Shown here piece after piece: positions 1,425 through 34,918 of a stretch of DNA of 36,879 nt (within the stretch, counting starts at the first letter, position 1; every line of letters begins with the position of its first letter). The notes beneath the pieces are model-generated. The model had not been told where the DNA came from. It did no database searches and saw only the letters and a program-made list of their open reading frames with translations. The translations under genes were made by a program, and so were the position numbers. Source of the DNA: a virus. The stretch is from positions 1 to 36,879 of IMG/VR virus record IMGVR_UViG_3300010373_001376; one strand, written 5' to 3'.

Positions 1425-1696
1425 TGGATATCGACGCCGCGATGCAACGCGCCGTCGGCGCGTTGAACCACATGGCCGATACCTGCCAGTACTTGGAGCA
1501 GAAGGCGGAACTGTGGCAGATCAGCCAGGAGCTGCTCAATGCGCGAGTCGCGTTCGCAGAGCTGATCAAGGCAGAAAATGCGGTTTGGGAAATCTACAGC
1601 CCCCTGATAGGCAATATGCGCACCGGTTCTGCGCGGAGCGTGGTGTGGGAACGGTTGCGTGACGCTCGCGCCCGGATCGGAGGCGCCAATGGCTGA
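1424..1696 (+). CDS. Hypothetical early protein upstream of transposase
   Basis: This is a 90-residue, mostly alpha-helical protein. ATG 1424 overlaps the previous stop as TGATG; a GTG at 1421 is the alternative start. No motif is recognised. Residues 5-45 form an amphipathic helix (AAMQRAVGALNHMADTCQYL). The transposase start codon lies 8 bases inside its 3' end, which supports a single early operon. Function is unknown. Confidence 0.55.
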   Translation: MDIDAAMQRAVGALNHMADTCQYLEQKAELWQISQELLNARVAFAELIKAENAVWEIYSPLIGNMRTGSARSVVWERLRDARARIGGANG

Positions 1697-3695
1697 CGGA
1701 TCGGACATCGAAAAACGCTGGTATGCCGCCACGGCCCTGGCCGGCGTGGCCGGTATGCCGACCACCAGCCGCAACGTCAATGCCCGCGCTCAGCGCGAGG
1801 TCTGGACATCGCGTCTGCGTGCGGCGCAAGGCGGTGGCCGCGAATACGCCTTCACCAGCCTCCCTGCGGCGACTCAGGCCGCGCTGCTGATGCGCGAACG
1901 CGGCAGCCTGCACGCGCTGGGCATGCAGGGGGCGGTGGAGCAGCTGGTGCAGGCGCGGCACACGCCGGACAGCCTGGCGTCGGCGCGGCAGGCGCTGGAG
2001 AACGCCAGCCAGGCGCGCAAGGACGAAGCGAACACGCGGCTGCATGCGGTGCTGGGCATCGAGGCGCTGTGCGGCACCGGCGCCACCGTGATGCAGGCGC
2101 GCGCGCTGGTGGCGGCACAGCTGCAACAGCAGTCGGTGAAAGGCGCCAGCACGGCCACGCTGGCTCGCTGGCAGGCGATGGTGGATGGGGCGCCGCGCGC
2201 GGATTGGCTGGCGCTGCTGCTGCCGAGCTACGTGGGCCGCACCGCCGAGGCACCGTGCGACCCGCTGGCATGGGAGTGGTACAAGAGCTACTGGCTCACA
2301 CGCCGGCAGCCCACGCACGCGGAAACGTACCGCCGCCTGCAGGAGATCGCTTCCGCCAAGGGCTGGGCCATCCCCAGCGACAAGACCCTGCAGCGCCGCA
2401 TCGAGCGCGAGATCGATCCGCACGTGGCCACGCTGCTGCGCCTCGGGCCGGAAGCCGCCGCGCACCGCACGCCGGTGCAGCAGCGCGACCGCAGCGTGTT
2501 CGGCGCTGGCGAGGCGGTGAACGGCGACGGCCTGAAATTCGACAAGCTGTGGGTGAAGTTCGAGGACGGCGAGATCCTCAACACCGCCACCGCGTGGTTC
2601 TGGCAAGACCTGCGTACCAACCGCGTGTTGGCGTGGCGCCTGGGCAAGACCGAAAACACCGACCTGTTCCGCCTGGCCACCTATGACCTGACCGGCGTAT
2701 GCGCACCGGCGCACGTGTGGATCGATAACACCCGCGTGGCCGCCAACAAGGAAATGACGGCCGGCGCCAAGGGCCGCCACCGGCACCTGGCGAAAGCCGC
2801 CGATGGTCTCGGCCTTTTGCTGATGCTTGGCATGGAGCCGCATTTCACCAATCCGGACAAGGAAACCGGTAATCCGGGCTCCAAGCCCATTGAACGCGGC
2901 TTCGGTATCGGCGGCCTGCACAGCGAGGTGGCTAATAATCCGCAGCTGCTCAATCGCGGCTACAACAAGACCACCGCGATTCCTGTGCAGGAATTGCGCG
3001 AGGTGATTACCTTCGAGGTGGCGCGATTCAACGCGCGCAGCGAGCGCCGCACGGCGGAATGCCGCGGCGTGCTGAGTTTCGACCAGGCCTGGGAAAACGC
3101 TGCAGCCGAACGCGCGCCGCGCGTGCTCGCCGAAAGCCAGCGCCGCATGCTGCTGATGAGCCGCGAAGCGGTGAAGGTCGACCGCGATCACGGCACCGTG
3201 TGGATCAAGGCCGGCCGCAGCCAATACGACAAGAATCGCTACTGGTGCGAATCGCTGGCGCGCTATGCGGGCCGCGAGCTGGTAGCGCACTTCGACCCCG
3301 AGAACCTGAGCGCCGGCATCCACCTGTACACGCTCGACGGCCGCTACCTGTTCCATGCCGACCACCTGGCGGGCCGCGCCTACAACGACCGCGACGCGGG
3401 CCGCGAAGACAACAAGCTGCGCCAGCGCTTGATCAAGCTCAACAAGAAACGCGCCGCCGAAACCGTGCGTCTGGACCAGCACGAGCGCGACAAGCTCTAC
3501 CAGCAGGCCACACACCAGCCCGCGGCGCCGAAAGGCAAGCGCAAGAGCAGCGGCAACGTGGTGCATGCGCACTTCCAGAAGCCGGCCGACCCCGCGCGCG
3601 ACGCGCAGCGCGCCACCGGCACCGACGGCGGCCTGACCGCACTCGACAAGGCCGCGCTGGCCTACATGGATCGCATGCGCAAAGACAGTTTTTGA
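1689..3695 (+). CDS. A: MuA-like DDE transposase
   Basis: This 668-residue transposase is expected to cut and join phage ends during integration and replicative transposition. The N-terminus (residues about 5-60, IEKRWYAATALAGVAGMPTT) matches the Mu-type HTH DNA-binding domain. The catalytic core shows D280 (NGDGLKFD), D346 (WIDNTRVA) and E402 (KPIERGFG). The spacings of 66 and 56 residues are nearly those of MuA (D269, D336, E392). A beta-barrel Mu-transposase C-terminal domain and a basic tail follow. ATG 1689 overlaps the previous gene by 8 bases and begins the conserved HTH. A GTG at 1659 is possible but adds unrelated residues. Confidence 0.95.
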   Translation: MADGSDIEKRWYAATALAGVAGMPTTSRNVNARAQREVWTSRLRAAQGGGREYAFTSLPAATQAALLMRERGSLHALGMQGAVEQLVQARHTPDSLASARQALENASQARKDEANTRLHAVLGIEALCGTGATVMQARALVAAQLQQQSVKGASTATLARWQAMVDGAPRADWLALLLPSYVGRTAEAPCDPLAWEWYKSYWLTRRQPTHAETYRRLQEIASAKGWAIPSDKTLQRRIEREIDPHVATLLRLGPEAAAHRTPVQQRDRSVFGAGEAVNGDGLKFDKLWVKFEDGEILNTATAWFWQDLRTNRVLAWRLGKTENTDLFRLATYDLTGVCAPAHVWIDNTRVAANKEMTAGAKGRHRHLAKAADGLGLLLMLGMEPHFTNPDKETGNPGSKPIERGFGIGGLHSEVANNPQLLNRGYNKTTAIPVQELREVITFEVARFNARSERRTAECRGVLSFDQAWENAAAERAPRVLAESQRRMLLMSREAVKVDRDHGTVWIKAGRSQYDKNRYWCESLARYAGRELVAHFDPENLSAGIHLYTLDGRYLFHADHLAGRAYNDRDAGREDNKLRQRLIKLNKKRAAETVRLDQHERDKLYQQATHQPAAPKGKRKSSGNVVHAHFQKPADPARDAQRATGTDGGLTALDKAALAYMDRMRKDSF

Positions 3696-3765
3696 AAGCG
3701 CCGCGCGCGGTGCAGCAACACCGCGCGCGGCTGGACACCGCACCACCCACTGAACGAGGCGAACA

Positions 3766-4725
3766 ATGAGCAACGAAGCATCCGGGGCAGGAATCTATCA
3801 GGGCGACGCGGAACTGCGCGAGCGCATCCGCGAGCGGCTGGACACCGACAAGAAGCTGTCGCAGTCCGCGCTGTCGAAAGAGGCCGGCATCAGCGCGGCC
3901 ACCCTCAACCAGTGGCTGGCCAGCAAATACGCCGGCGACAACGAGAACATCGACACCAAGCTCAAGCTGTGGGAGGAAGCGGACAAGGCGCGGCGCGCCG
4001 CCGGCAGCCTGATGCCGAAGGCGCCGAACTTCCAGGCGCTACCCACCGCCACCCGCGTGCTGAGCGCGCTGGCCTACGTACAGATGGCCGGCGACATCGG
4101 CGCCATCTACGGTGGCGCTGGCCTGGGCAAGACCAGCGCGTGCATGCACTACCAGGCCAGCAACCCCAATGTGTGGCTGGTCACCATGACCGAGAGCTCC
4201 AGCGGGCTGGTGACGGCTCTGCAGGAGATCTGCGAGGAGCTGTCGCTGGGCACCGAGGGAGGCGCGCGCGAGATGAGCAAGCGCATCCGCAGGAAGGTGC
4301 GCGGCACCAATGGGCTGCTGCTGATCGACGAAGCGCAGCACCTGGGTGTGCAGGCGCTGGAGGAGATCCGCCAGATCCACGATGCCACCGGCATTGCCGT
4401 CGCCCTGGTAGGCAACGAGGGCGTATTCAGCCGCATGGCCGGCGGCCGGGGCGCGGAGCGGCTGGACCGACTCTTCAGCCGCGTGGGCAAGCGCCTGGCG
4501 CTGCGCCAGAGCACCGAGGCCGACGTGCTTGGCCTGGTGAAGGCGTGGGGAGTACTCGACGCGAAGTGCCATTCCACGTTGCTGCAGGTGGCGCGCGGTG
4601 CCGGTGCGCTGCGCACGCTCACCAAGACGCTGCGGCTCGCGGCAATGAACGCCGCGGCCGAAGGGCGCGCCGTGTGCTGCGAAGACGTGCGCGCCGCCGC
4701 GGCCGAGCTGGGAGGCACCGTATGA
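3766..4725 (+). CDS. B: MuB-like AAA+ ATPase, transposition target-selection protein
   Basis: This 319-residue ATPase should bind target DNA, stimulate the transposase and mediate target immunity. The N-terminus (residues about 31-70, SQSALSKEAGISAATLNQWL) is an HTH. The Walker A motif is GGAGLGKTS (116-124) and the Walker B motif is LLLIDEAQ (184-191). A winged-helix-like C-terminal part follows. The order A then B matches all Mu-like phages. A GAGG ribosome-binding site precedes ATG 3766. Its stop overlaps the next ATG. Confidence 0.95.
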   Translation: MSNEASGAGIYQGDAELRERIRERLDTDKKLSQSALSKEAGISAATLNQWLASKYAGDNENIDTKLKLWEEADKARRAAGSLMPKAPNFQALPTATRVLSALAYVQMAGDIGAIYGGAGLGKTSACMHYQASNPNVWLVTMTESSSGLVTALQEICEELSLGTEGGAREMSKRIRRKVRGTNGLLLIDEAQHLGVQALEEIRQIHDATGIAVALVGNEGVFSRMAGGRGAERLDRLFSRVGKRLALRQSTEADVLGLVKAWGVLDAKCHSTLLQVARGAGALRTLTKTLRLAAMNAAAEGRAVCCEDVRAAAAELGGTV

Positions 4726-4943
4726 GCCTAAGGAACGAACCCTACGCGCTGATCGGCGAGGCCGCGCGCGTGATGCTGCACGGCTCCGAGGTGCTCTACG
4801 AGCAGCCGGGACACAAGCTGCTCAAGGTGTCGTCGGGCGCCCTCGGCCTGCGCCTGGGCCTGTTCGACAGCACCGAGCAGAAGGTGACCGTGCTGGATGG
4901 CGCCCAGGTGGTGGACGTGCTGCGCCAGGCGCTGAAGCGGTAA
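4722..4943 (+). CDS. Hypothetical early protein after MuB
   Basis: This is a 73-residue protein whose ATG overlaps the MuB stop (ATGA). It reads as a small mixed alpha/beta fold (HKLLKVSSGALGLRLGLFDS) with a C-terminal helix. No domain is recognised. Tight coupling to MuB and Mu-like codon use support a real gene. Function is unknown. Confidence 0.6.
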   Translation: MSLRNEPYALIGEAARVMLHGSEVLYEQPGHKLLKVSSGALGLRLGLFDSTEQKVTVLDGAQVVDVLRQALKR

Positions 4944-4947
4944 CGCC

Positions 4948-5325
4948 ATGCACCAGGCCGACCTCTACACGCAGGAACTGACGCCCGATGCGGTGCGTGC
5001 GGCACTGCGCGTGGGAGCGGCCAACGGGCAAGCCGCCGACGAGCTGGTGCTGGCCATCCTCGGGCGACGCAGCGCAGCGGCCGAACGGCAGCTGAGGGAC
5101 ATCATCGTCGCCCTTCGCATGGCCGGCCACGCCGTCTGCGCCGAGCCCACGCATGGCTACTACATCGCCGCCGATAGCACCGAACTGACGCGCTGCTGCG
5201 AATTCCTGCTGGCGCGATCCATGACAACCCTCCGGCAGATCAGCGCCATGAAGCGCGTGTCGTTGCCGGATCTACGCGGGCAGCTCGGGCTGCCGCTGGA
5301 GAAAAGCGATGAATCCCATGAATGA
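4948..5325 (+). CDS. Probable winged-helix early protein
   Basis: The protein has 125 residues. Residues 43-70 (AAERQLRDIIVALRMAGHAV followed by CAEPTHGYYIA) read as a recognition helix followed by a wing, the pattern of small phage winged-helix proteins. The C-terminal helices (TRCCEFLLARSMTTLRQISA) may be a dimerisation or partner surface. It is an early gene in the transposition-gam interval, so a regulatory or replication-accessory role is possible but unproven. Its 3' end overlaps the next gene. Confidence 0.55.
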   Translation: MHQADLYTQELTPDAVRAALRVGAANGQAADELVLAILGRRSAAAERQLRDIIVALRMAGHAVCAEPTHGYYIAADSTELTRCCEFLLARSMTTLRQISAMKRVSLPDLRGQLGLPLEKSDESHE

Positions 5326-5596
5326 ACTGCTGCGCGTGGCCACGGGCAACGCGCTGGAGGCGCTTGTGTTCCTCGACCAGGCCGGCGCCACCGTGATCGG
5401 CATCGAGATCCGCAACGCGCGGCCGGTGATCACCCTGGACGGCGAGCCGCCCCGCTTCGTGCGCGGCGCGCTGCACAAGACCCACCCGGTGGGCAGCAAC
5501 CAGCGCGAGCACGTGATGGTGGCGATGGTGAAGGGCTGCCGCGTGGAGTGGACGGTGCGCACGGTGCGCGGCGTGACCGAACAGGGAGCGGCCTGA
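5309..5596 (+). CDS. Hypothetical early protein
   Basis: This is a 95-residue protein from ATG 5309; a second ATG occurs a few codons later. The central part (GATVIGIEIRNARPVITLDG) looks like a small beta-sheet, followed by a KTHP-x-x-SNQREHVMVAMVKGCRVEWTV beta region. Similar short proteins lie between B and gam in B3-like phages, with no known role. It is coupled to its neighbours at both ends. Confidence 0.6.
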   Translation: MNPMNELLRVATGNALEALVFLDQAGATVIGIEIRNARPVITLDGEPPRFVRGALHKTHPVGSNQREHVMVAMVKGCRVEWTVRTVRGVTEQGAA

Positions 5597-5760
5597 TGGA
5601 CATTCTCCCGCCTGTCCTGGCGCGCTGCGTTCACCGGCCAGAGCTCGATGACGAATTGCCGCCCTGGCTGGGCGAGCGTTTCCGCGATATCACCCATGAC
5701 ATCCATCGCGCCGCGTTCGAGACGCAGCAAGACAAGGAGCCCACCAATGGCCACCAGTAA
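5596..5760 (+). CDS. Small hypothetical early protein
   Basis: This is a 54-residue ORF whose ATG 5596 overlaps the preceding stop (TGATG). It contains a DDELPPWLGERFRDITHDIH helix. The 3' end overlaps the start of gam by 14 bases. It has no recognised domain. Support comes from position and coupling only. Confidence 0.45.
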   Translation: MDILPPVLARCVHRPELDDELPPWLGERFRDITHDIHRAAFETQQDKEPTNGHQ

Positions 5761-6277
5761 GACACGCGTCAAGACCGACGCCGTGCAACACCCCGTGCCG
5801 CAGACGCGCGAGGACGTGACCAGCGCCATCGCCATGATCGGCGCGCACCAGCGCGAACGCGACCGCATCCAAGCCGCGATGAACGACGAGTTGAGCCGCA
5901 TTCGCGAGCGATTCGAGGCCGAGGCCAAGCCGCACGCCGACGTGATCGGCCAACTCACCAAGGGCGTGCACCTGTATTGCGAGGCGCACCGCGACGAGAT
6001 CACCAAGGGCGGCAAGGTCAAGACGCATGCTTTCGCCAGCGGTGAGGTCAAGTGGCGCCTGCGGCCGCCATCCGTGGTGCTGCGCGGCGCGGACGCGGTG
6101 CTTGACGCACTCAAGGCGCTCAAGCTCGACCGCTTCGTGCGCGTGAAGGAAGAGGTCAACAAGGACGCCATCCTCGCCGACCCGGAAGCCGTCGCAGGCG
6201 TGAAGGGCATCAGCGTGCGCCAGACCGAGGATTTCGTGGTGCAGCCCTGGGATACCGAGCTGGAGGAGGTCGCCTGA
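5747..6277 (+). CDS. gam: Gam-like host-nuclease inhibitor, DNA-end-binding protein
   Basis: This 176-residue protein matches the Mu Gam family, Ku-like proteins that bind double-stranded DNA ends and block exonucleases such as RecBCD. A long N-terminal helix pair (residues about 25-90, including RERDRIQAAMNDELSRIRER) is followed by a beta region (AFASGEVKWRLRPPSVVLRG) typical of the family. A C-terminal VRQTEDFVVQPWDTELEEV tail follows. ATG 5747 overlaps the previous gene, and its stop overlaps the start of the first DGR target gene. The DGR cassette therefore continues the early operon. Confidence 0.9.
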   Translation: MATSKTRVKTDAVQHPVPQTREDVTSAIAMIGAHQRERDRIQAAMNDELSRIRERFEAEAKPHADVIGQLTKGVHLYCEAHRDEITKGGKVKTHAFASGEVKWRLRPPSVVLRGADAVLDALKALKLDRFVRVKEEVNKDAILADPEAVAGVKGISVRQTEDFVVQPWDTELEEVA

Positions 6278-6705
6278 TGCTCACTCTCCAGATCAAACCG
6301 GATGGCACCGTCGCCATCGGCATCGACCGGCCTGCCGCCGACATCGCAATGGCAGATGCCACGACAGCAACCGCACCGAAGCTCGAATGGAGCGGCACCC
6401 TCTGCGACGGCAAGTCCGTGGACTACGCCGCCGCCGAGAAAGCCTGTGCCGCCCTCGGCGAGGGCTGGCGCCTGCCGACGCGCATGGAGCTGGAATCGAT
6501 CCTCGACCTCACGCGTCACGATCCGGCCATCGACTCCGCGCGGTTCCCCGACACGAAGAGCACCTGGTACTGGACCAGCACGCCGTGCGCGTGGGCGCCG
6601 TCCTGCGCGTGGCTCGTCTACTTCTACAGCGGCTACGCCGACCTCAGCGACCGCCTCAGCCAGGCCTGCGTGCGGGCGGTGCGTGTCGTGTCGGCCGGTC
6701 AGTAA
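6277..6705 (+). CDS. DGR variable protein 1 (DUF1566/C-type-lectin-like fold)
   Basis: This 142-residue target protein of the adjacent retroelement carries a DUF1566 (Lcl C-terminal) domain (residues about 36-142, with GWRLPTRMELESILD, FPDTKSTWYWTST and CVRAVRVVSAGQ). Such domains have a lectin/sulfatase-modifying-factor-like fold that tolerates surface diversity. The last 38 residues are encoded by VR1. Codons 113-129 carry 13 substitutions relative to the template, all at template adenines. No signal peptide or membrane segment is visible. The N-terminal 35 residues (MLTLQIKPDGTVAIGIDRPA) are not shared with the second target. Its ligand is unknown. ATG overlaps the gam stop. Confidence 0.93.
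   Translation: MLTLQIKPDGTVAIGIDRPAADIAMADATTATAPKLEWSGTLCDGKSVDYAAAEKACAALGEGWRLPTRMELESILDLTRHDPAIDSARFPDTKSTWYWTSTPCAWAPSCAWLVYFYSGYADLSDRLSQACVRAVRVVSAGQ
6589..6704 (+). repeat. DGR variable repeat VR1
   Basis: This 116-bp stretch aligns without gaps to the template at 7637-7752 (offset 1048). The first 24 bases and the 36 GC-rich bases corresponding to TR 7712-7747 are identical. Between them are 13 substitutions, each at a template A. The extra difference is C at 6700 against template G 7748. It ends in the TAA stop of the target gene. Confidence 0.96.
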
Positions 6706-6737
6706 TTGGCCTTTTTGACCTCTTTCAGGAGCACACC

Positions 6738-7124
6738 ATGAAGCGATTCACCGACAACGGTGACGGCACCGTCACCGACACCCTGACTGGCCTGATGTGG
6801 ACCAAGGCCACCGTCGCGAAGGGCAAGACCCACAAGAAGGCCACTGCGGCGGCGAAGAAGCTCGATGTGGCCGGCCACAAGGACTGGCGGCTGCCGACCG
6901 TTGAGGAGCTTTTCCTGCTGGCCGACCGCTCGCGCTTGCGCCCGGCGATCGACGTGGAGGCCTTCCCGGACACCGAGAACGATTGGTACTGGACCAGTAC
7001 GGACAGTGCGTGGGCGCCGTCCTGCGCGTGGCTCGTCTACTTCTACTACGGCAGCGCCTACCACAGCGACCGCGACTACAGGGCCTGCGTGCGGGCGGTG
7101 CGTGTCGTGTCGGCCGGTCAGTAA
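6738..7124 (+). CDS. DGR variable protein 2 (DUF1566/C-type-lectin-like fold)
   Basis: This is a 128-residue second target gene, in tandem with the first. It is a full DUF1566 domain: FTDNGDGTVTDTLTGLMWTK at residues 4-23, DWRLPTVEELFLLADRS, FPDTENDWYWTST and the conserved CVRAVRVVSAGQ end. Codons 99-115 are the diversified segment, with 11 substitutions against the template, again only at adenines. A good AGGAG ribosome-binding site lies 5' of ATG 6738. There is no signal peptide. It shares the WYWTST block with target 1 upstream of the VR, so the pair probably arose by gene duplication. Confidence 0.93.
   Translation: MKRFTDNGDGTVTDTLTGLMWTKATVAKGKTHKKATAAAKKLDVAGHKDWRLPTVEELFLLADRSRLRPAIDVEAFPDTENDWYWTSTDSAWAPSCAWLVYFYYGSAYHSDRDYRACVRAVRVVSAGQ
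7008..7123 (+). repeat. DGR variable repeat VR2
   Basis: This 116-bp stretch aligns without gaps to template 7637-7752 (offset 629). There are 11 substitutions, all at template adenines. The flanking 24-base and 36-base blocks are identical. C at 7119 replaces template G 7748, as in VR1. It ends in the TAA stop of the second target gene. Confidence 0.96.
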
Positions 7125-7142
7125 CTCTGCCTCTTTGAACCC

Positions 7143-7580
7143 ATGAACCATTCGCTGCCGCCCATCGTGAGGACCGCCGAACGCCTGCTCCGCGAGATCG
7201 AGCAGGCGGTTCGCGGCTTCGCGCGATATCACAAATACACCATCGGCATCGACCTGCGGCAGCAGGCCATGACGGTGGTGCGCGTGTGCCATCGCGCATG
7301 GCGGGACAGGCAGCGGCAGGCTCACTGGGTCGACCAGCTTCGCTGGGCGATCGACGAGATCAAACTGAGCCTGCAGATGGGCAGCCAGATCCGTGCGTTC
7401 AAGAGCTTCAACCAGTTCGAGATGCTGATCCGGCTGGCCGAGGAACTCGGCCGTCAGGCTGGCGGCTGGTGGCGGCAGCAGCAAATCCCCAAGGGCCAGA
7501 ATCCGGCGCGCGAAGCCGCGCCGGAGCGTGCCCAGATACTGAGTACCCGCGGCGCCTCATTCCAAGGGGCCAACCCATGA
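7143..7580 (+). CDS. avd: Avd-like DGR accessory variability determinant
   Basis: This 145-residue, helix-rich, basic protein lies directly upstream of the template and reverse transcriptase, the usual place of avd. The helices LPPIVRTAERLLREIEQAVR, the segment up to IDLRQQAMTVVRVCHRAWRD, WVDQLRWAIDEIKLSLQMGS and FNQFEMLIRLAEELGRQAGG fit the four-helix-bundle Avd family. In that family the protein forms a pentamer that binds the reverse transcriptase and template RNA. The C-terminal tail (about 120-145) is probably disordered. Its stop overlaps the next ATG (ATGA). Confidence 0.9.
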   Translation: MNHSLPPIVRTAERLLREIEQAVRGFARYHKYTIGIDLRQQAMTVVRVCHRAWRDRQRQAHWVDQLRWAIDEIKLSLQMGSQIRAFKSFNQFEMLIRLAEELGRQAGGWWRQQQIPKGQNPAREAAPERAQILSTRGASFQGANP

Positions 7581-8932
7581 CGAAGGCGCGCAACTCCAGG
7601 CTGGACTGTTCGCCCAGGTCGCAAGTTCGCGGGGAAGCGTGGGCGCCGTCCTGCGCGTGGATCGTCAACTTCAACAACGGCAACGCCAACAACAACGACC
7701 GCAACAACAAGGCCTGCGTGCGGGCGGTGCGTGTCGTGTCGGCCGGTGAGTATCAGGGGACGGGCGCCGAGGCGGTTTCGCTTCGCGCGCTTCACGACGC
7801 CTGGCGCATGGCGCGCCGTGGCAAGCAGCCGAGCCGCAACCAGCTCGCGTTCGATGCCCGATGGGCAGATGGCCTGCTGCAGCTGCAGCGCGATCTGCAG
7901 GGTGGCACATGGCAACCGCGTTCCAGCGTGTGTTTTGTAGCTACGCGGCCGAAGGCGCGCGAGATCCACGCGCCGGATTTCGCCGACCGCGTGGTGCACC
8001 ACTGGCTCGTACCGCGCCTGGAAACGATCTGGGAGCCGCGGTTCATCACGGATAGTTACGCCAACCGCCGCGGCCGGGGCAGCCATGCCGCCGTGCGCCG
8101 CGTGCAGCAATTCGTCCGACAGGTGCACAGCGGCCAAGGCGGCGGGTATTACCTGCAGCTCGACATCCGCAACTTCTTCAACTCGATCCACCGGCCCACG
8201 CTGTGGCGCATCCTGAAGCCGGTGCTGGCGCGGCATGCGGTACCACTGCCCATGCAGCGCGCCACGCATGCCCTGCTGCGCCGGCCACCGCTGGACGCCG
8301 GGGTGAAGTTGCGCGGCACACCCGAAGAGTTCGCCCTGGTGCCGGCGCACAAGCGGCTTGCCAACGCCGCGCCGGGTTGCGGCCTGCCGATCGGAAACCT
8401 CAGCTCGCAGCTGTTCGCCAACATCTACCTCGACCGCCTCGACCAGTTCGTGAAGCACGTCCTGCGGGCGAAGCGATATGTGCGCTACGTCGACGACTTC
8501 GTGCTTGTCCACCACGACCGCGAGGTTCTGGCCGACTGGCAGCGTCGAATCGCCGACTTCCTGCAGCGTGAACTTCGCCTGGCGCTGAAGGATGACGTGC
8601 GCCTGCGGCCACTCACCGATGGCATCGACTTCCTTGGTTACGTAGTGCGGCCAACCCACACGCTGGTACGCCGCCGTGTCGTGGCACATGCCCGCGCCGC
8701 ACTGGCTAATTGGGAGCGAAAGCACGTACGGGGCCGCGATCTGCATGCATCCCCCGAAGAGCTGCATCAAATTCAATCCATAGCTGCCAGCTACGCCGGC
8801 CACCTTCGGCATGCCCACAGCTTCCGGCTGGGGCAATCCATTCATCGTCGCTATCCGTGGCTGAACGCCGCGATGAGACGGCGCCATTTCCATCATCGGT
8901 TGGCACACCGCCAGCTTGTTCTGAGGGCTTGA
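7577..8932 (+). CDS. DGR-type reverse transcriptase, with the template repeat inside its 5' coding region
   Basis: Read from ATG 7577 the protein has 451 residues. Residues about 75-380 are a reverse transcriptase: FADRVVHHWLVPRLETIWEP and RFITDSYANRRGRGSHAA, YYLQLDIRNFF with D196, the DGR-diagnostic LPIGNLSSQ (270-278) in place of the usual QG motif, and YVDD with D306/D307. The C-terminal SYAGHLRHAHSFRLGQSI region is typical of DGR enzymes. The enzyme should copy the template RNA with errors at adenines. ATG 7577 gives ATGA coupling to avd and reads straight through the template in frame. Initiation could instead occur at in-frame GTG codons 7718, 7727 or 7736, or at ATG 7808, just before or inside the conserved RT start. 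No HNH or maturase domain is present. Confidence 0.95.
   Translation: MTKARNSRLDCSPRSQVRGEAWAPSCAWIVNFNNGNANNNDRNNKACVRAVRVVSAGEYQGTGAEAVSLRALHDAWRMARRGKQPSRNQLAFDARWADGLLQLQRDLQGGTWQPRSSVCFVATRPKAREIHAPDFADRVVHHWLVPRLETIWEPRFITDSYANRRGRGSHAAVRRVQQFVRQVHSGQGGGYYLQLDIRNFFNSIHRPTLWRILKPVLARHAVPLPMQRATHALLRRPPLDAGVKLRGTPEEFALVPAHKRLANAAPGCGLPIGNLSSQLFANIYLDRLDQFVKHVLRAKRYVRYVDDFVLVHHDREVLADWQRRIADFLQRELRLALKDDVRLRPLTDGIDFLGYVVRPTHTLVRRRVVAHARAALANWERKHVRGRDLHASPEELHQIQSIAASYAGHLRHAHSFRLGQSIHRRYPWLNAAMRRRHFHHRLAHRQLVLRA
7637..7752 (+). repeat. DGR template repeat TR
   Basis: This 116-bp template is adenine-rich in its core (7661-7710): one ATC, nine AAC, one GAC and one AAG codon, with 22 adenines. 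It is identical to VR1 and VR2 except at adenines and at G7748. The 3' GC-rich block (7712-7747) is where the IMH/IMH* boundary is expected. All nine AAC codons become NNC on mutagenesis, which can never give a stop. Confidence 0.96.
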
Positions 8933-8934
8933 CC

Positions 8935-9150
8935 ATGATTCCACGCGACCCACGCATCGATCCGCAGTTCGGTGACAGCGTTACCAGCCATGACGAGACC
9001 CGCGAAGTGGAGAAGCGCATCGGCGATCGCGTGATCTACAGCTGGCCCGGAAAGCTGGCCGTGCGCACGTTGCAGTTGTCGGCCTGGCAGGCCTGGGCAG
9101 CGCAGGCCAGCGAATGGCATGCAGCGGATGCCGAGAGCGCGGCGGCGTGA
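8935..9150 (+). CDS. Small hypothetical early/middle protein
   Basis: This is a 71-residue protein from ATG 8935, 2 bases after the RT stop. Its pattern is MIPRDPRIDPQFGDSV, then beta strands (KRIGDRVIYSW) and a WQAWAAQASEW helix. It resembles small Mu-like phage proteins found near gemA, which have no assigned role. Support comes from position and coupling. Confidence 0.5.
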   Translation: MIPRDPRIDPQFGDSVTSHDETREVEKRIGDRVIYSWPGKLAVRTLQLSAWQAWAAQASEWHAADAESAAA

Positions 9151-9152
9151 GC

Positions 9153-9341
9153 ATGCCCCGCGGCACGCCGTCGGAAATCGCCTACTGGCTCGGCACGCAG
9201 CGCGTGGTGCCGAGCGTATGGGAGCTGATGCAGGTGTGGGACTTGTCGCGCGCCGCCGCGTTCCGGTGGCGCGCATTTGCAAGGGCCGGTGGCCGTTGTC
9301 AGCAACGCCACCATGAAGGCGAGAACCGGAAAGCGAAATGA
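9153..9341 (+). CDS. Small HTH-like hypothetical protein
   Basis: This is a 62-residue ORF from ATG 9153; a GTG at 9147 overlapping the previous stop is the alternative. Residues 19-41 (VWELMQVWDLSRAAAFRWRA) look like a helix-turn-helix recognition region. The C-terminus is very basic. The gemA ATG lies within its stop. Function is unknown; a DNA-binding regulator is possible. Confidence 0.5.
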   Translation: MPRGTPSEIAYWLGTQRVVPSVWELMQVWDLSRAAAFRWRAFARAGGRCQQRHHEGENRKAK

Positions 9342-9790
9342 GCGTGACGACGATGATGCAAGCCTCCGACCGACGCAACAAGCAACTGGCCGCCATCCAC
9401 GTGATGGCGGCCAAGCAGCTGCACCTCGATCGCGAGACCTATGTGGCGCTCCTGCAGCGCGTTGCCGGCGTGGACAGTGCGGGCAAGCTCAATGCGCTCG
9501 GCCGCGCCACGGTGCTGGACGAGCTACGCCGCCTCGCCGGCCAGGGCCAGCAGCACATGCGCAACGCGGTGAACCTGCCCGATGCCCCGCACAACGTGCG
9601 CGAGGAGATCGCCGGCATGGTGGCCAAGGTGGGCGCGATCCTGGCCGAGACGTGCAAAAGCTGGAACTACGCGCACGGCACGGCCAAGCGGATGTTCCGT
9701 GTGCAGCGGGTGGAGTGGTTGCGCGCCGACCAGCTGCACAAGCTGGTGGCGGCGCTGCAGATCAGTGCGAATCGGCGAAGGGGGAAGTGA
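9338..9790 (+). CDS. gemA: GemA-like regulatory protein (DUF1018, Mu gp16)
   Basis: This 150-residue protein matches the GemA/DUF1018 family of Mu-like phages. The N-terminal region RRNKQLAAIHVMAAKQLHLD has the family's I-H-x-x-x-K/A-x-L-x-L-D pattern. It is followed by RETYVALLQRVAGVDSAGKL, and the C-terminal segment (TAKRMFRVQRVEWLRADQLH onward) is also characteristic. In Mu, GemA affects host gene expression and DNA relaxation; the mechanism is poorly understood. It is coupled at both ends in the early/middle operon. Confidence 0.85.
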   Translation: MSVTTMMQASDRRNKQLAAIHVMAAKQLHLDRETYVALLQRVAGVDSAGKLNALGRATVLDELRRLAGQGQQHMRNAVNLPDAPHNVREEIAGMVAKVGAILAETCKSWNYAHGTAKRMFRVQRVEWLRADQLHKLVAALQISANRRRGK

Positions 9791-10032
9791 TGGCCACCAT
9801 CCATGTCAAATACCGCTGCGACGAATGCGGCGAGATCCACGAGGAAGAGTCGGACGCGCGCGGTTGCTGTCCGCCGGAGATCTCCGAGATTTTCTATTGC
9901 TCCGTGTGCCATGCCGAGTTCTACGACGAGTTGGACGCCGACGAGCACTGCAACACCCACAACGATGACGAGCCCGACGTGCCGACGAAAGCGGAACTGG
10001 AAGCCGCGGGTCAAATGAGGCTGGAGATCTGA
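9790..10032 (+). CDS. Small zinc-ribbon-like protein
   Basis: This is an 80-residue acidic protein. It contains CDEC (residues 10-13), a CC pair near residue 27, CSVC (37-40) and a C/H-rich segment (DADEHCNTHNDD), consistent with one or two zinc-binding knuckles. It starts in the gemA stop (TGATG) and ends in the next start. Function is unknown; a small zinc-finger adaptor is plausible. Confidence 0.6.
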   Translation: MATIHVKYRCDECGEIHEEESDARGCCPPEISEIFYCSVCHAEFYDELDADEHCNTHNDDEPDVPTKAELEAAGQMRLEI

Positions 10033-10289
10033 TGAGCATCCTGCACCCGCTATCCGCGGAAGAGATCCACCGCGACTTTACCCATATCGGCTGGTTCGCC
10101 TTTTGCCCCGTATACCTGGCCGAGGATGGCGCCGAGGGCATGAACGTCTGCGAGCGTAACGGCGTACCCGCATGGTGGTTCGGTGCGGCCGAAGTGTTTA
10201 TGTCGTTGGTGATCTTCATGCTCAGCATCTTGCCGGGCGATTACGAGCCGCAGTGGGGATTCATCGTCACCGGGGAGATCAAGCGCTGA
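10032..10289 (+). CDS. Hypothetical protein with a hydrophobic segment
   Basis: This is an 85-residue protein. The N-terminal half (EEIHRDFTHIGWFAFCPVYL) is followed by a hydrophobic stretch (residues about 53-68, EVFMSLVIFMLSILPGDY) that could be one membrane helix or a buried core helix. It is coupled to both neighbours. No family is recognised. Confidence 0.5.
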   Translation: MSILHPLSAEEIHRDFTHIGWFAFCPVYLAEDGAEGMNVCERNGVPAWWFGAAEVFMSLVIFMLSILPGDYEPQWGFIVTGEIKR

Positions 10290-10879
10290 TGCACGTTACT
10301 TGTCCCTCCTGCCACGAACCGTTCCCCATCGCCGCCGGCTTCCTGGAAGTCGACGGCAAGCGCCTTGCCGCGCTGCTGGCGGAGATGGAGCCGGTGCTGG
10401 GACGCGCGGTGCTGGCGTACCTGCGGCTGTTCAAGCCGGCCAAGCAGGGGCTGCGCACGGCGCGAGCGGCGAAGCTGGTGGCCGAGCTGGATGGCCTGGT
10501 GCGCGAGGGCACGGTGTGCCGCGACGAGCGCGGCGGCGTGCGCCGGCCGGCGACGCCGGCGATGTGGGCGCAGGGCATCGAGCAGCTGCTGCAGCAGATG
10601 GATCGCCTGACGCTCCCGCTGGCGAATCACCACTACCTGCGCGCCGTGGTGTACGGCATCGCCGACCAGGTGGACGCGGCGGCCGAGCGCAAGGCGCATG
10701 ACGACAAGCGCGCCGGTCGCCACCTGGACAGCCGCGGCGGCGATGCCGGCGCCGCCGCCGAGCGCCTGGCGCTGCAGGAGGCCATCGGCCGGATCCGCAG
10801 CGACGCGCAGCTGGGGCTGATCGACGCGGCCGAGGCGCAGCGGCGCCTGCTGGCGCTGGGGCTGAAAGCCAAGTCATGA
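10289..10879 (+). CDS. Hypothetical middle-region protein with an N-terminal CxxC knuckle
   Basis: This is a 196-residue helical protein. It opens with a zinc-knuckle-like CPSC (residues 5-8), and the rest is rich in Arg/Ala/Leu helices (QGIEQLLQQMDRLTLPLANH, then AVVYGIADQVDAAAERKAHD). It lies immediately upstream of the Mor-type activator and overlaps it by 4 bases. B3-like phages carry similar-sized proteins here, but I know no function. Confidence 0.55.
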   Translation: MHVTCPSCHEPFPIAAGFLEVDGKRLAALLAEMEPVLGRAVLAYLRLFKPAKQGLRTARAAKLVAELDGLVREGTVCRDERGGVRRPATPAMWAQGIEQLLQQMDRLTLPLANHHYLRAVVYGIADQVDAAAERKAHDDKRAGRHLDSRGGDAGAAAERLALQEAIGRIRSDAQLGLIDAAEAQRRLLALGLKAKS

Positions 10880-11292
10880 CCGCCACGTTCGACAGCGTCG
10901 TTGCCGATGATCTGCCGCCGCGCCTCGCGCAGCTGGCGGAGCTGATCGGGTTGCCGGCCACGCTGCGGCTGGTGGAGGCACGCGGCGGCACCAGCATCTA
11001 TGTGCCCGACGTGGCCACCACGGATCACTGGCTGGCACGGCTGCTGGGCATCGAGGCGATGCTGCAGCTGGTGGGCGCATACCCGCGCGACTACATGCAC
11101 ATCGATCGCGCGGCCGCCGCCTTGCGCGCCGCGCGGGATCGCCATATCGTTTCTCGGCATCGCGCCGGCGAATCCACGGCGTCGCTGGCGTTGACCTATG
11201 GCCTGACGCAACGTCAGGTGTTCAACATACTGGCCCGCGCCTGCGCGGGCGACGACTCCGAACCGGACCTGTTCCAGTCCGCCGCCCGCTGA
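10876..11292 (+). CDS. mor: Mor-family transcription activator
   Basis: This 138-residue protein matches the Mor/C family of Mu middle and late activators. An N-terminal dimerisation region (residues about 1-60, with the beta strand GGTSIYVPD) precedes a C-terminal HTH (residues about 88-128, RHIVSRHRAGESTASLALTY followed by GLTQRQVFNILARA). Only one Mor/C-type gene is visible, so it may serve for both middle and late transcription. The palindrome at its stop codon is a possible binding site. Confidence 0.85.
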   Translation: MTATFDSVVADDLPPRLAQLAELIGLPATLRLVEARGGTSIYVPDVATTDHWLARLLGIEAMLQLVGAYPRDYMHIDRAAAALRAARDRHIVSRHRAGESTASLALTYGLTQRQVFNILARACAGDDSEPDLFQSAAR

Positions 11293-11310
11293 AGCGCTTC
11301 AGCCTGATTC
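11288..11310. promoter_or_regulatory. Repeated palindrome, copy 1, candidate activator operator or RNA hairpin
   Basis: The perfect 16-bp palindrome GCTGAAGCGCTTCAGC (11288-11303) is followed by CTGATTC. The same 23 bases occur at 19609-19631. This copy overlaps the mor stop and lies ahead of the lysis/packaging block. It could be a Mor-type operator, or an RNA stem with a GCGC loop. Confidence 0.45.
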
Positions 11311-11364
11311 ACCCAACCCTGCATCCGTAGCCTGTCCGCGTGGCGCGCCGCCTCGTGCGCCACT

Positions 11365-34102: not shown

Positions 34103-34918
34103 ATGGACTATCCCAAGACCGTAGCCAATGTGAATCTGCTTGCCGGCAAATTCACGGATGGCAATCCTGGTACGGGCGAACCCGCTTCGCTGGTGCCGGC
34201 GGAGTGGTGCAATGCGCTGACCGATGAGCAGCTCAACATCCTCGCCGCCGCGGGCATTGAGCCGAACGAGGCCGATTCCACTCAGCTCGGTGTGGCGATC
34301 CAGAGTGGGATGCTCAACATGGGCACCGACACGGGTGCGGCGAATGCCTATGCTGTTGCATACAATCCGCCTATTAAAATCCTGAACATAGGGCAGTTGC
34401 TGCGCTTCCGCGCAGCAACCGCTAACACCGGCGCGAGCACATTGAATGTCAATGGGCTCGGCGCGTTTCCGTTGGTGGGACTTGGTGGCCAACCATTACA
34501 GGGTGGAGAAATCAATGTCCATTGCGTAGTGAGCGTGGTGTATGTCGGTTCTGGCTCCTTCATCTTGCTTTCAGCGCAAAATGGATGCCTTCCTGTGGTG
34601 GCCGGACAAGCGTCAAACCATGCAATCAACTTGGGGCAATTCACTGGCTCAAATCAAAGTCTATTGTCTAACGGGTTCCAGAAAATTGCCGGAAGTCTAA
34701 TGATCCAGTAGGGTGCTGTCACTGTTTCGGCTAGTTCTAGTCAAACGTTCAACTTTCCCCTCGCATTTCCCAATGTTTGCTTTCAAGTCGTTGGCTCACG
34801 AAGTCAGCCAGGCAGCAACTCTTCCTATAATTTTGCTGCAAATTCACGATCACAGTTTACTGCCCAAAACTGCGCACCTAGTGCAGAGAACGCATCATGG
34901 TTCGCCATTGGCTATTGA
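34103..34918 (+). pseudogene. Tail fibre with an in-frame amber codon in its C-terminal domain
   Basis: The first part (202 residues, 34103-34711) is a tail fibre: MDYPKTVANVNLLAGKFTDG, a repetitive middle (LRFRAATANTGASTLNVNGL), then NGFQKIAGSLMIQ and TAG (34709-34711). Past the stop, the same frame continues for 68 residues (GAVTVSASSSQTFNFPLAFP to SWFAIGY, stop at 34916-34918), the gp53-like fibre tip. The family motif is IQWG, so TAG probably replaces TGG. The tip would be lost unless the codon is suppressed or is a sequencing error. This stretch is AT-richer than its neighbours. Confidence 0.85.

Follow-up and report, generated by a model that had tools for sequence, protein, structure and literature searches.

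A template that lies within the gene of its own enzyme raises the question of how translation and templating share one RNA. Such an arrangement is found in the window analysed here, the whole stretch of 36,879 nucleotides from IMG/VR virus record IMGVR_UViG_3300010373_001376, where the template repeat (TR) of a DGR is situated inside its reverse transcriptase (RT) gene. Probably, this DGR of the early region of a Mu-like phage rewrites the C-termini of two Lcl_C proteins from one template, and a single RNA is both RT mRNA and template.

The cassette is complete and serves two targets from one template, in agreement with the original prediction. It has Avd, a DGR-type RT, a single TR and two Lcl_C (DUF1566) genes with a C-terminal VR each (Table 1), and a scan of the whole record finds three copies of the repeat only, TR, VR2 and VR1. 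These parts and the adenine-confined TR/VR changes assign the element to the DGRs, among which it is of the ordinary two-target Lcl_C type. The RT has its best match, both in sequence and in fold, to the BPP-1 DGR RT (8ub7, bRT), its closest solved relative; the GNLSSQ-type and YVDD residues are invariant, and the RT motifs and all cassette parts are intact. The match of Avd to Pfam bAvd is below the Pfam cut-off. Both VRs end at the stop codon of their target gene. The Lcl_C domain assignment predicts that the targets are C-type-lectin-like, and by inspection neither Lcl_C (DUF1566) protein has a hydrophobic N-terminus.

PHROG gene matches identify the window as a Mu-like phage with the DGR in its early region, next to gam. 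The scan of the whole record reveals no VR near the tail-fibre gene. Among the loci examined, the cassette has a Mu-like context only in the window and in the related contig L004; it adjoins a primase gene in L007, is found near ParB-like and integrase genes in L085, and does not adjoin tail genes.

Table 1. Features of the window (positions count from its first letter)
Feature	Position	Strand	Evidence or remark
Transposase A	1659-3695		
Transposition protein B	3766-4725		
Gam	5648-6277		upstream of DGR
Target gene 1, 142 aa, Lcl_C domain	6277..6705	+	Pfam PF07603, E 1.2e-22
VR1, C-terminal end of target 1	6589..6704	+	14 differences from TR, 13 at template A plus G7748C
Target gene 2, 128 aa, Lcl_C domain	6738..7124	+	Pfam PF07603, E 4.9e-31
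VR2, C-terminal end of target 2	7008..7123	+	12 differences from TR, 11 at template A plus G7748C
avd	7143..7580	+	phrog_3206 'Avd protein of DGR', E 5.6e-18
Structured RNA module 5' of TR	7532..7642	+	covariation; model R1, 99.1 bits
H0 5' arm, GATACT	7535..7540	+	pairs with 7749-7754
Candidate priming site, GAG left unpaired between H0 and H1	7541..7543	+	invariant columns of A1
Helix H1	7546-7552/7627-7633		
Helix H2	7554-7557/7567-7570		
Ribosome-binding-site-like AAGGGG of RT, partly within H2	7564..7569	+	sequence; 35-locus alignment
RT gene, 451 aa, YVDD and IGNLSSQ motifs	7577..8932	+	phrog_1423, E 1e-98
Helix H3	7585-7591/7608-7614		
TR (template repeat)	7637..7752	+	RT codons about 21-58
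H0 3' arm, AGTATC, just 3' of TR homology	7749..7754	+	pairs with 7535-7540
Conserved phage gene	9338-9790		taken for Mu gp16 type by position
Late activator	10876-11292		followed by head and tail genes
Tail-fibre gene	34103-34711		
Methyltransferase	right end of window		

The gap-free alignment of VR1 and VR2 to TR, with 13 and 11 core substitutions, was recovered in full on realignment. The core (TR 7661-7710) has 22 adenines, and all 24 core differences between TR and the VRs hit template adenines, none being located elsewhere in the core. Each 116-bp VR segment has one extra, non-adenine difference, G7748C, at the 3' edge of TR that distinguishes IMH from IMH*. Since G7748C is common to both VRs, the divergence can be called purely adenine-specific, as it had been, for the core but not for the full 116 bp. 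Past this edge the VRs reach the target stop codon (CAG TAA) while TR continues as GAG TAT CAG, and TR/VR homology effectively ends at 7747. The codon GAC at 7697-7699 is unchanged in both VRs of the window, as first noted; the near-identical phage L004 has a G in place of A7698 in its VR2, and GAC is therefore not a protected codon. A weakly conserved motif like CAGTAATTGGCCTTTTGGC (6705-6730 and 7124-7145 in the window) comes after each of 68 clade VRs and is not a BPP-1-like long hairpin. A BPP-1-like stem-loop after the VR was rejected, the best stems having 4.84 bp versus 4.83 in shuffles.

Comparison with close relatives bears out the proposal that the DGR was recently active. L004, a viral contig from another metagenome, is near-identical to the window through the cassette (2567 aligned bases). 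Within the VRs the two phages differ at 30 of 48 template-adenine sites and at none of the 184 remaining ones, a contrast that excludes chance, while TR has no difference in 116 positions and the remaining aligned cassette has 8 in 2218. VR variation linked to one unchanged TR, the pattern by which activity was to be recognized, is thus found among related genomes. Because VR divergence is confined to template-adenine sites and TR is identical, the DGR has been active since the window and L004 separated. Two recent pairs among more distant relatives behave alike: L070 and L072 differ at 12 of 63 adenine sites and nowhere else, L053 and L056 at 14 of 52 adenine sites, 1 of 126 other VR sites and 0 of 2272 positions elsewhere. 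A gap-free scan of related loci finds adenine bias nearly everywhere, usually with two VRs and with four at most. Upstream of VR2, target 2 has six clustered differences from L004 (window 6930-6997) in an otherwise almost identical cassette, perhaps due to gene conversion. The transposase region (window 1679-3700) has ~89% protein identity to L004, while the segment from about 3750 to 11232 is nearly identical; the far greater divergence of the former suggests recombination between phages.

The RT frame begins at ATG 7577, which overlaps the avd stop codon (ATGA) and is preceded by AAGGGG. It continues through TR, which it reads in the targets' frame, and on into the RT core. The ATGA overlap with avd occurs in nearly all loci of the clade, which has 53-100% RT identity, and TR ends about 0-10 nt from the RT core. 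Between RT start and RT core, 36 non-redundant loci have no stop in the RT frame, whereas stops interrupt the other two in 36 and 34 loci. The ATG-to-RT lengths are divisible by three in 32 of 32 cases, although spread over 14 lengths. In L043, identical to cultured Solimonas fluminis L132, TR is out of frame and the ATG and RT still share one frame. The stop-free RT frame, its lengths in multiples of three and its maintenance even where TR is out of frame form the pattern predicted under read-through of TR by ribosomes. Exceptions are found among the relatives: the frame is broken in L039, starts at GTG in L032, and in L026, as in L043, TR is in another frame. The overlap of TR with the end of the RT ORF places the element in DiGReF structural group 3.

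The TR-encoded peptide itself seems unimportant, because RT residues 1-64 have a pLDDT of about 30-48 in the AlphaFold (AF2) model and the leader does not have the third-position excess seen in the RT core. The core is mostly above 90 and is folded from about residue 67. A selected RT domain encoded by TR is unlikely on the same grounds.

Constraint on the leader acts at the nucleotide level, judging from fourfold sites, whose variability is 0.14-0.27 in the leader and early TR and about 0.5-0.6 in RT. Alignment A1, which gathers 35 loci around the RT start, reveals a structured RNA module 5' of TR. Its helices H1-H3 are paired in 96.8% of cells over the 35 loci and covary strongly: they have 75 double-change cells, where shuffled alignments have 14 (sd 3.2) and slid controls at most 17. 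The ribosome-binding site and start codon of RT are within the module. A known Rfam family for the leader was rejected, as no family of this database matches the window RNA.

A blind scan of the 5' against the 3' flanks of TR yields a single long-range helix, H0; the reversed-orientation control yields no such helix. Across 36 loci the H0 arms occur in 11 combinations (GGAACT/AGTTCC, GCAACT/AGTTGC, GGCACT/AGTGCC and GATTCT/AGAATC among them) and pair in 215 of 216 cells; 0 of 10000 shuffles are as good, for a helix that is short (6 bp) and partly invariant. The unconstrained minimum-energy fold of the window RNA includes H0, whose 3' arm starts one base past G7748, the mismatch-bounded end of TR/VR homology. 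H0 thus closes over the module and the whole template.

The module model, which excludes H0, was searched against a sample of 299 genomes from the order to which Dyella lutea belongs and has matches in five, three of them new (L172-L174). These out-of-sample loci all have a perfect H0 and TR read-through (3/3). The model also matches DGRs of Hydrogenophilales (L091), of Methylococcaceae-type MAGs (L090 and L127), of Rubrivivax (L093) and of Desulfobulbales (L097), in each case adjoining the TR start, mostly at 10 bases or less. L091 and L093 have clear H0-like pairing; in L090, L097 and L127 it is weaker. In L090 and L127 TR is 740-800 nt away from RT and not in its frame, and the module is still positioned at the TR start; it therefore travels with the template.

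A second clade, with 36-47% RT identity, has a different RNA at the same place, identified as Rfam RT-15 in the four loci scanned. It lies 5' of TR at 9721-9912 in L058, 9682-9873 in L081, 9724-9923 in L068 and 6541-6720 in L080; the observations on this clade also take in L166 3806-5089. The RT-n motifs reportedly originate from Weinberg 2017. DGRs with RT-15 RNA (RF03018), such as that of Burkholderia phage Magia, whose annotated RT contains TR, resemble the window in their structured RNA directly 5' of TR and in an RT frame mostly open through TR. However, they read TR in another frame, the helices are different, and the RF03018 covariance model has no match in the window at 6200-9000 (E 1) or 7500-7800 (E 10). 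An AAUCUG/CAGAUU pairing across TR is visible in this clade, with CAGAUU just 3' of TR and with AAUCUG left unpaired in the Rfam consensus. With arms that hardly vary and no long-range match in the blind scan, a closing pairing across TR is suggestive only in these DGRs.

The DGR of Bordetella phage BPP-1 (mtd/avd/TR/brt) shares with the window the order target-avd-TR-RT, adenine-specific change, the RT fold (8ub7) and Avd. In BPP-1, TR directly follows avd and a 144-nt structured spacer (Rfam Phage_DGR RF03022) lies 3' of TR before brt, while the window has its structured RNA 5' of TR, no spacer and TR inside the RT frame. The targets differ as well, being small Lcl_C proteins rather than a tail fibre. 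A Phage_DGR spacer was not found 3' of TR, where there is no Rfam match and TR abuts the RT core; a spacer RNA concealed at the 5' end of the RT coding sequence was rejected, given that there is no synonymous constraint 3' of TR. Reciprocally, model R1 has no match at the BPP-1 avd/TR junction, its best weak match lying elsewhere. The transposable Bacteroides phage Hankyphage, whose DGR is active (PMC12135933), is also of Mu type with Avd, TR and VR, but its DGR is at the right end and rewrites the tail fibre, in contrast to the early cassette next to gam and the tail-fibre gene without VR of the window.

These comparisons bear on whether the element is after all an ordinary BPP-1-type DGR, with RT starting within or after TR and with a 3' spacer RNA, now RT coding sequence, that recruits RT and primes synthesis. 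The BPP-1 TR-brt spacer of 144 nt, which is Rfam Phage_DGR, provides the precedent and alternative GTG codons are present in the TR region. Such an organization is nevertheless improbable: the frame from ATG 7577 is kept open in all loci, the short distance from TR to the RT core in the clade argues against a spacer, fourfold sites directly 3' of TR are as variable as in the remaining RT, and neither the window nor L004 has a Phage_DGR match.

A slightly smaller chance is given to the 5' RNA being a leader element that regulates RT translation only and is unrelated to cDNA synthesis. The presence of the RT ribosome-binding site and start codon in the module speaks for such a regulator, but H0 spans the whole TR and the module keeps to the TR start in L090 and L127, far from RT and out of its frame. 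That the DGR is decayed and inactive, with old VR differences, is hardly credible when near-identical phages differ within their VRs at template-adenine sites only and when RT motifs and all other parts are intact.

The reading preferred here, in which RT mRNA and template are one transcript, is built on four features read from the sequence, namely adenine-specific transfer, the RT frame through TR, the covarying 5' module and H0; RT-Avd binding, priming and translational switching we infer. Translating ribosomes would open the fold and produce RT with a disordered N-terminal tail. In the folded RNA, H2 would hide the RT ribosome-binding site and RT-Avd would bind the 5' module. Concealment of this site by the fold or by bound RT would make the RNA either messenger or template, one at a time. 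H0 would bring the TR 3' end beside the module for cDNA synthesis to start at about G7747, possibly primed from a 2'-OH in the invariant unpaired GAG. The error-prone cDNA would then replace VR1 or VR2. The process would resemble BPP-1 mutagenic retrohoming, except that its RNA platform lies on the 5' side of the template, a layout like that of a retron, where structured RNA and RT are carried on one msr-msd-RT transcript (PMC8867640). Sharing of one RNA by RT translation and template function would recall group II introns, in which RT binding to a high-affinity site of its own RNA autoregulates RT translation (Singh 2002, as cited in PMC4524724). Both are analogies of layout only. More tentatively, the clade of the window, the RT-15 clade and the scattered lineages may all use a retron-like template RNA with a 5' platform, a helix over TR and 5'-side priming; in the two clades this same RNA would be the RT mRNA and RT-Avd binding would switch it from translation to template.

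The template architecture appears to be new, within a DGR type that is known. DGRs with two DUF1566 targets have been described before, as has a transposable phage carrying a DGR (PMC6642488, PMC8143477, PMC12135933). A 2012 work (PMC3521204) lists as structural group 3 those DGRs in which TR overlaps the end of an annotated RT ORF. The consulted sections of this work and of the survey PMC6642488 feature DGRs with two DUF1566 targets per TR, like the window, but do not treat translation of TR within RT, the RNA module or H0. In the part of the literature covered by the search, no paper was found that treats TR as translated within RT or describes the window RNA or H0; earlier notice of the RNA parts is possible. 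DGR cDNA initiation was studied mainly in one element, BPP-1, with its RNA platform 3' of the template. If the reading is correct, a covarying 5' platform with a helix over the template is a second way of building a DGR ribonucleoprotein, and the conserved fold that holds the template gives a concrete, testable idea of how DGRs begin copying. Many Proteobacteria have the 5' platform in their phages and prophages. A compact element that carries TR and RT on a single transcript could, if confirmed, serve targeted-mutagenesis tools.

The RT gene has unusual forms in some of the relatives. In L015, Avd, TR and RT form a single open frame, uninterrupted at about 9557-11353, possibly a natural Avd-RT fusion. 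The RT genes of L127 and L128 have an apparent long insertion before the motif LDI(H/A)NFFNSIHRP, with repeats such as RGNDKGMA in L127.
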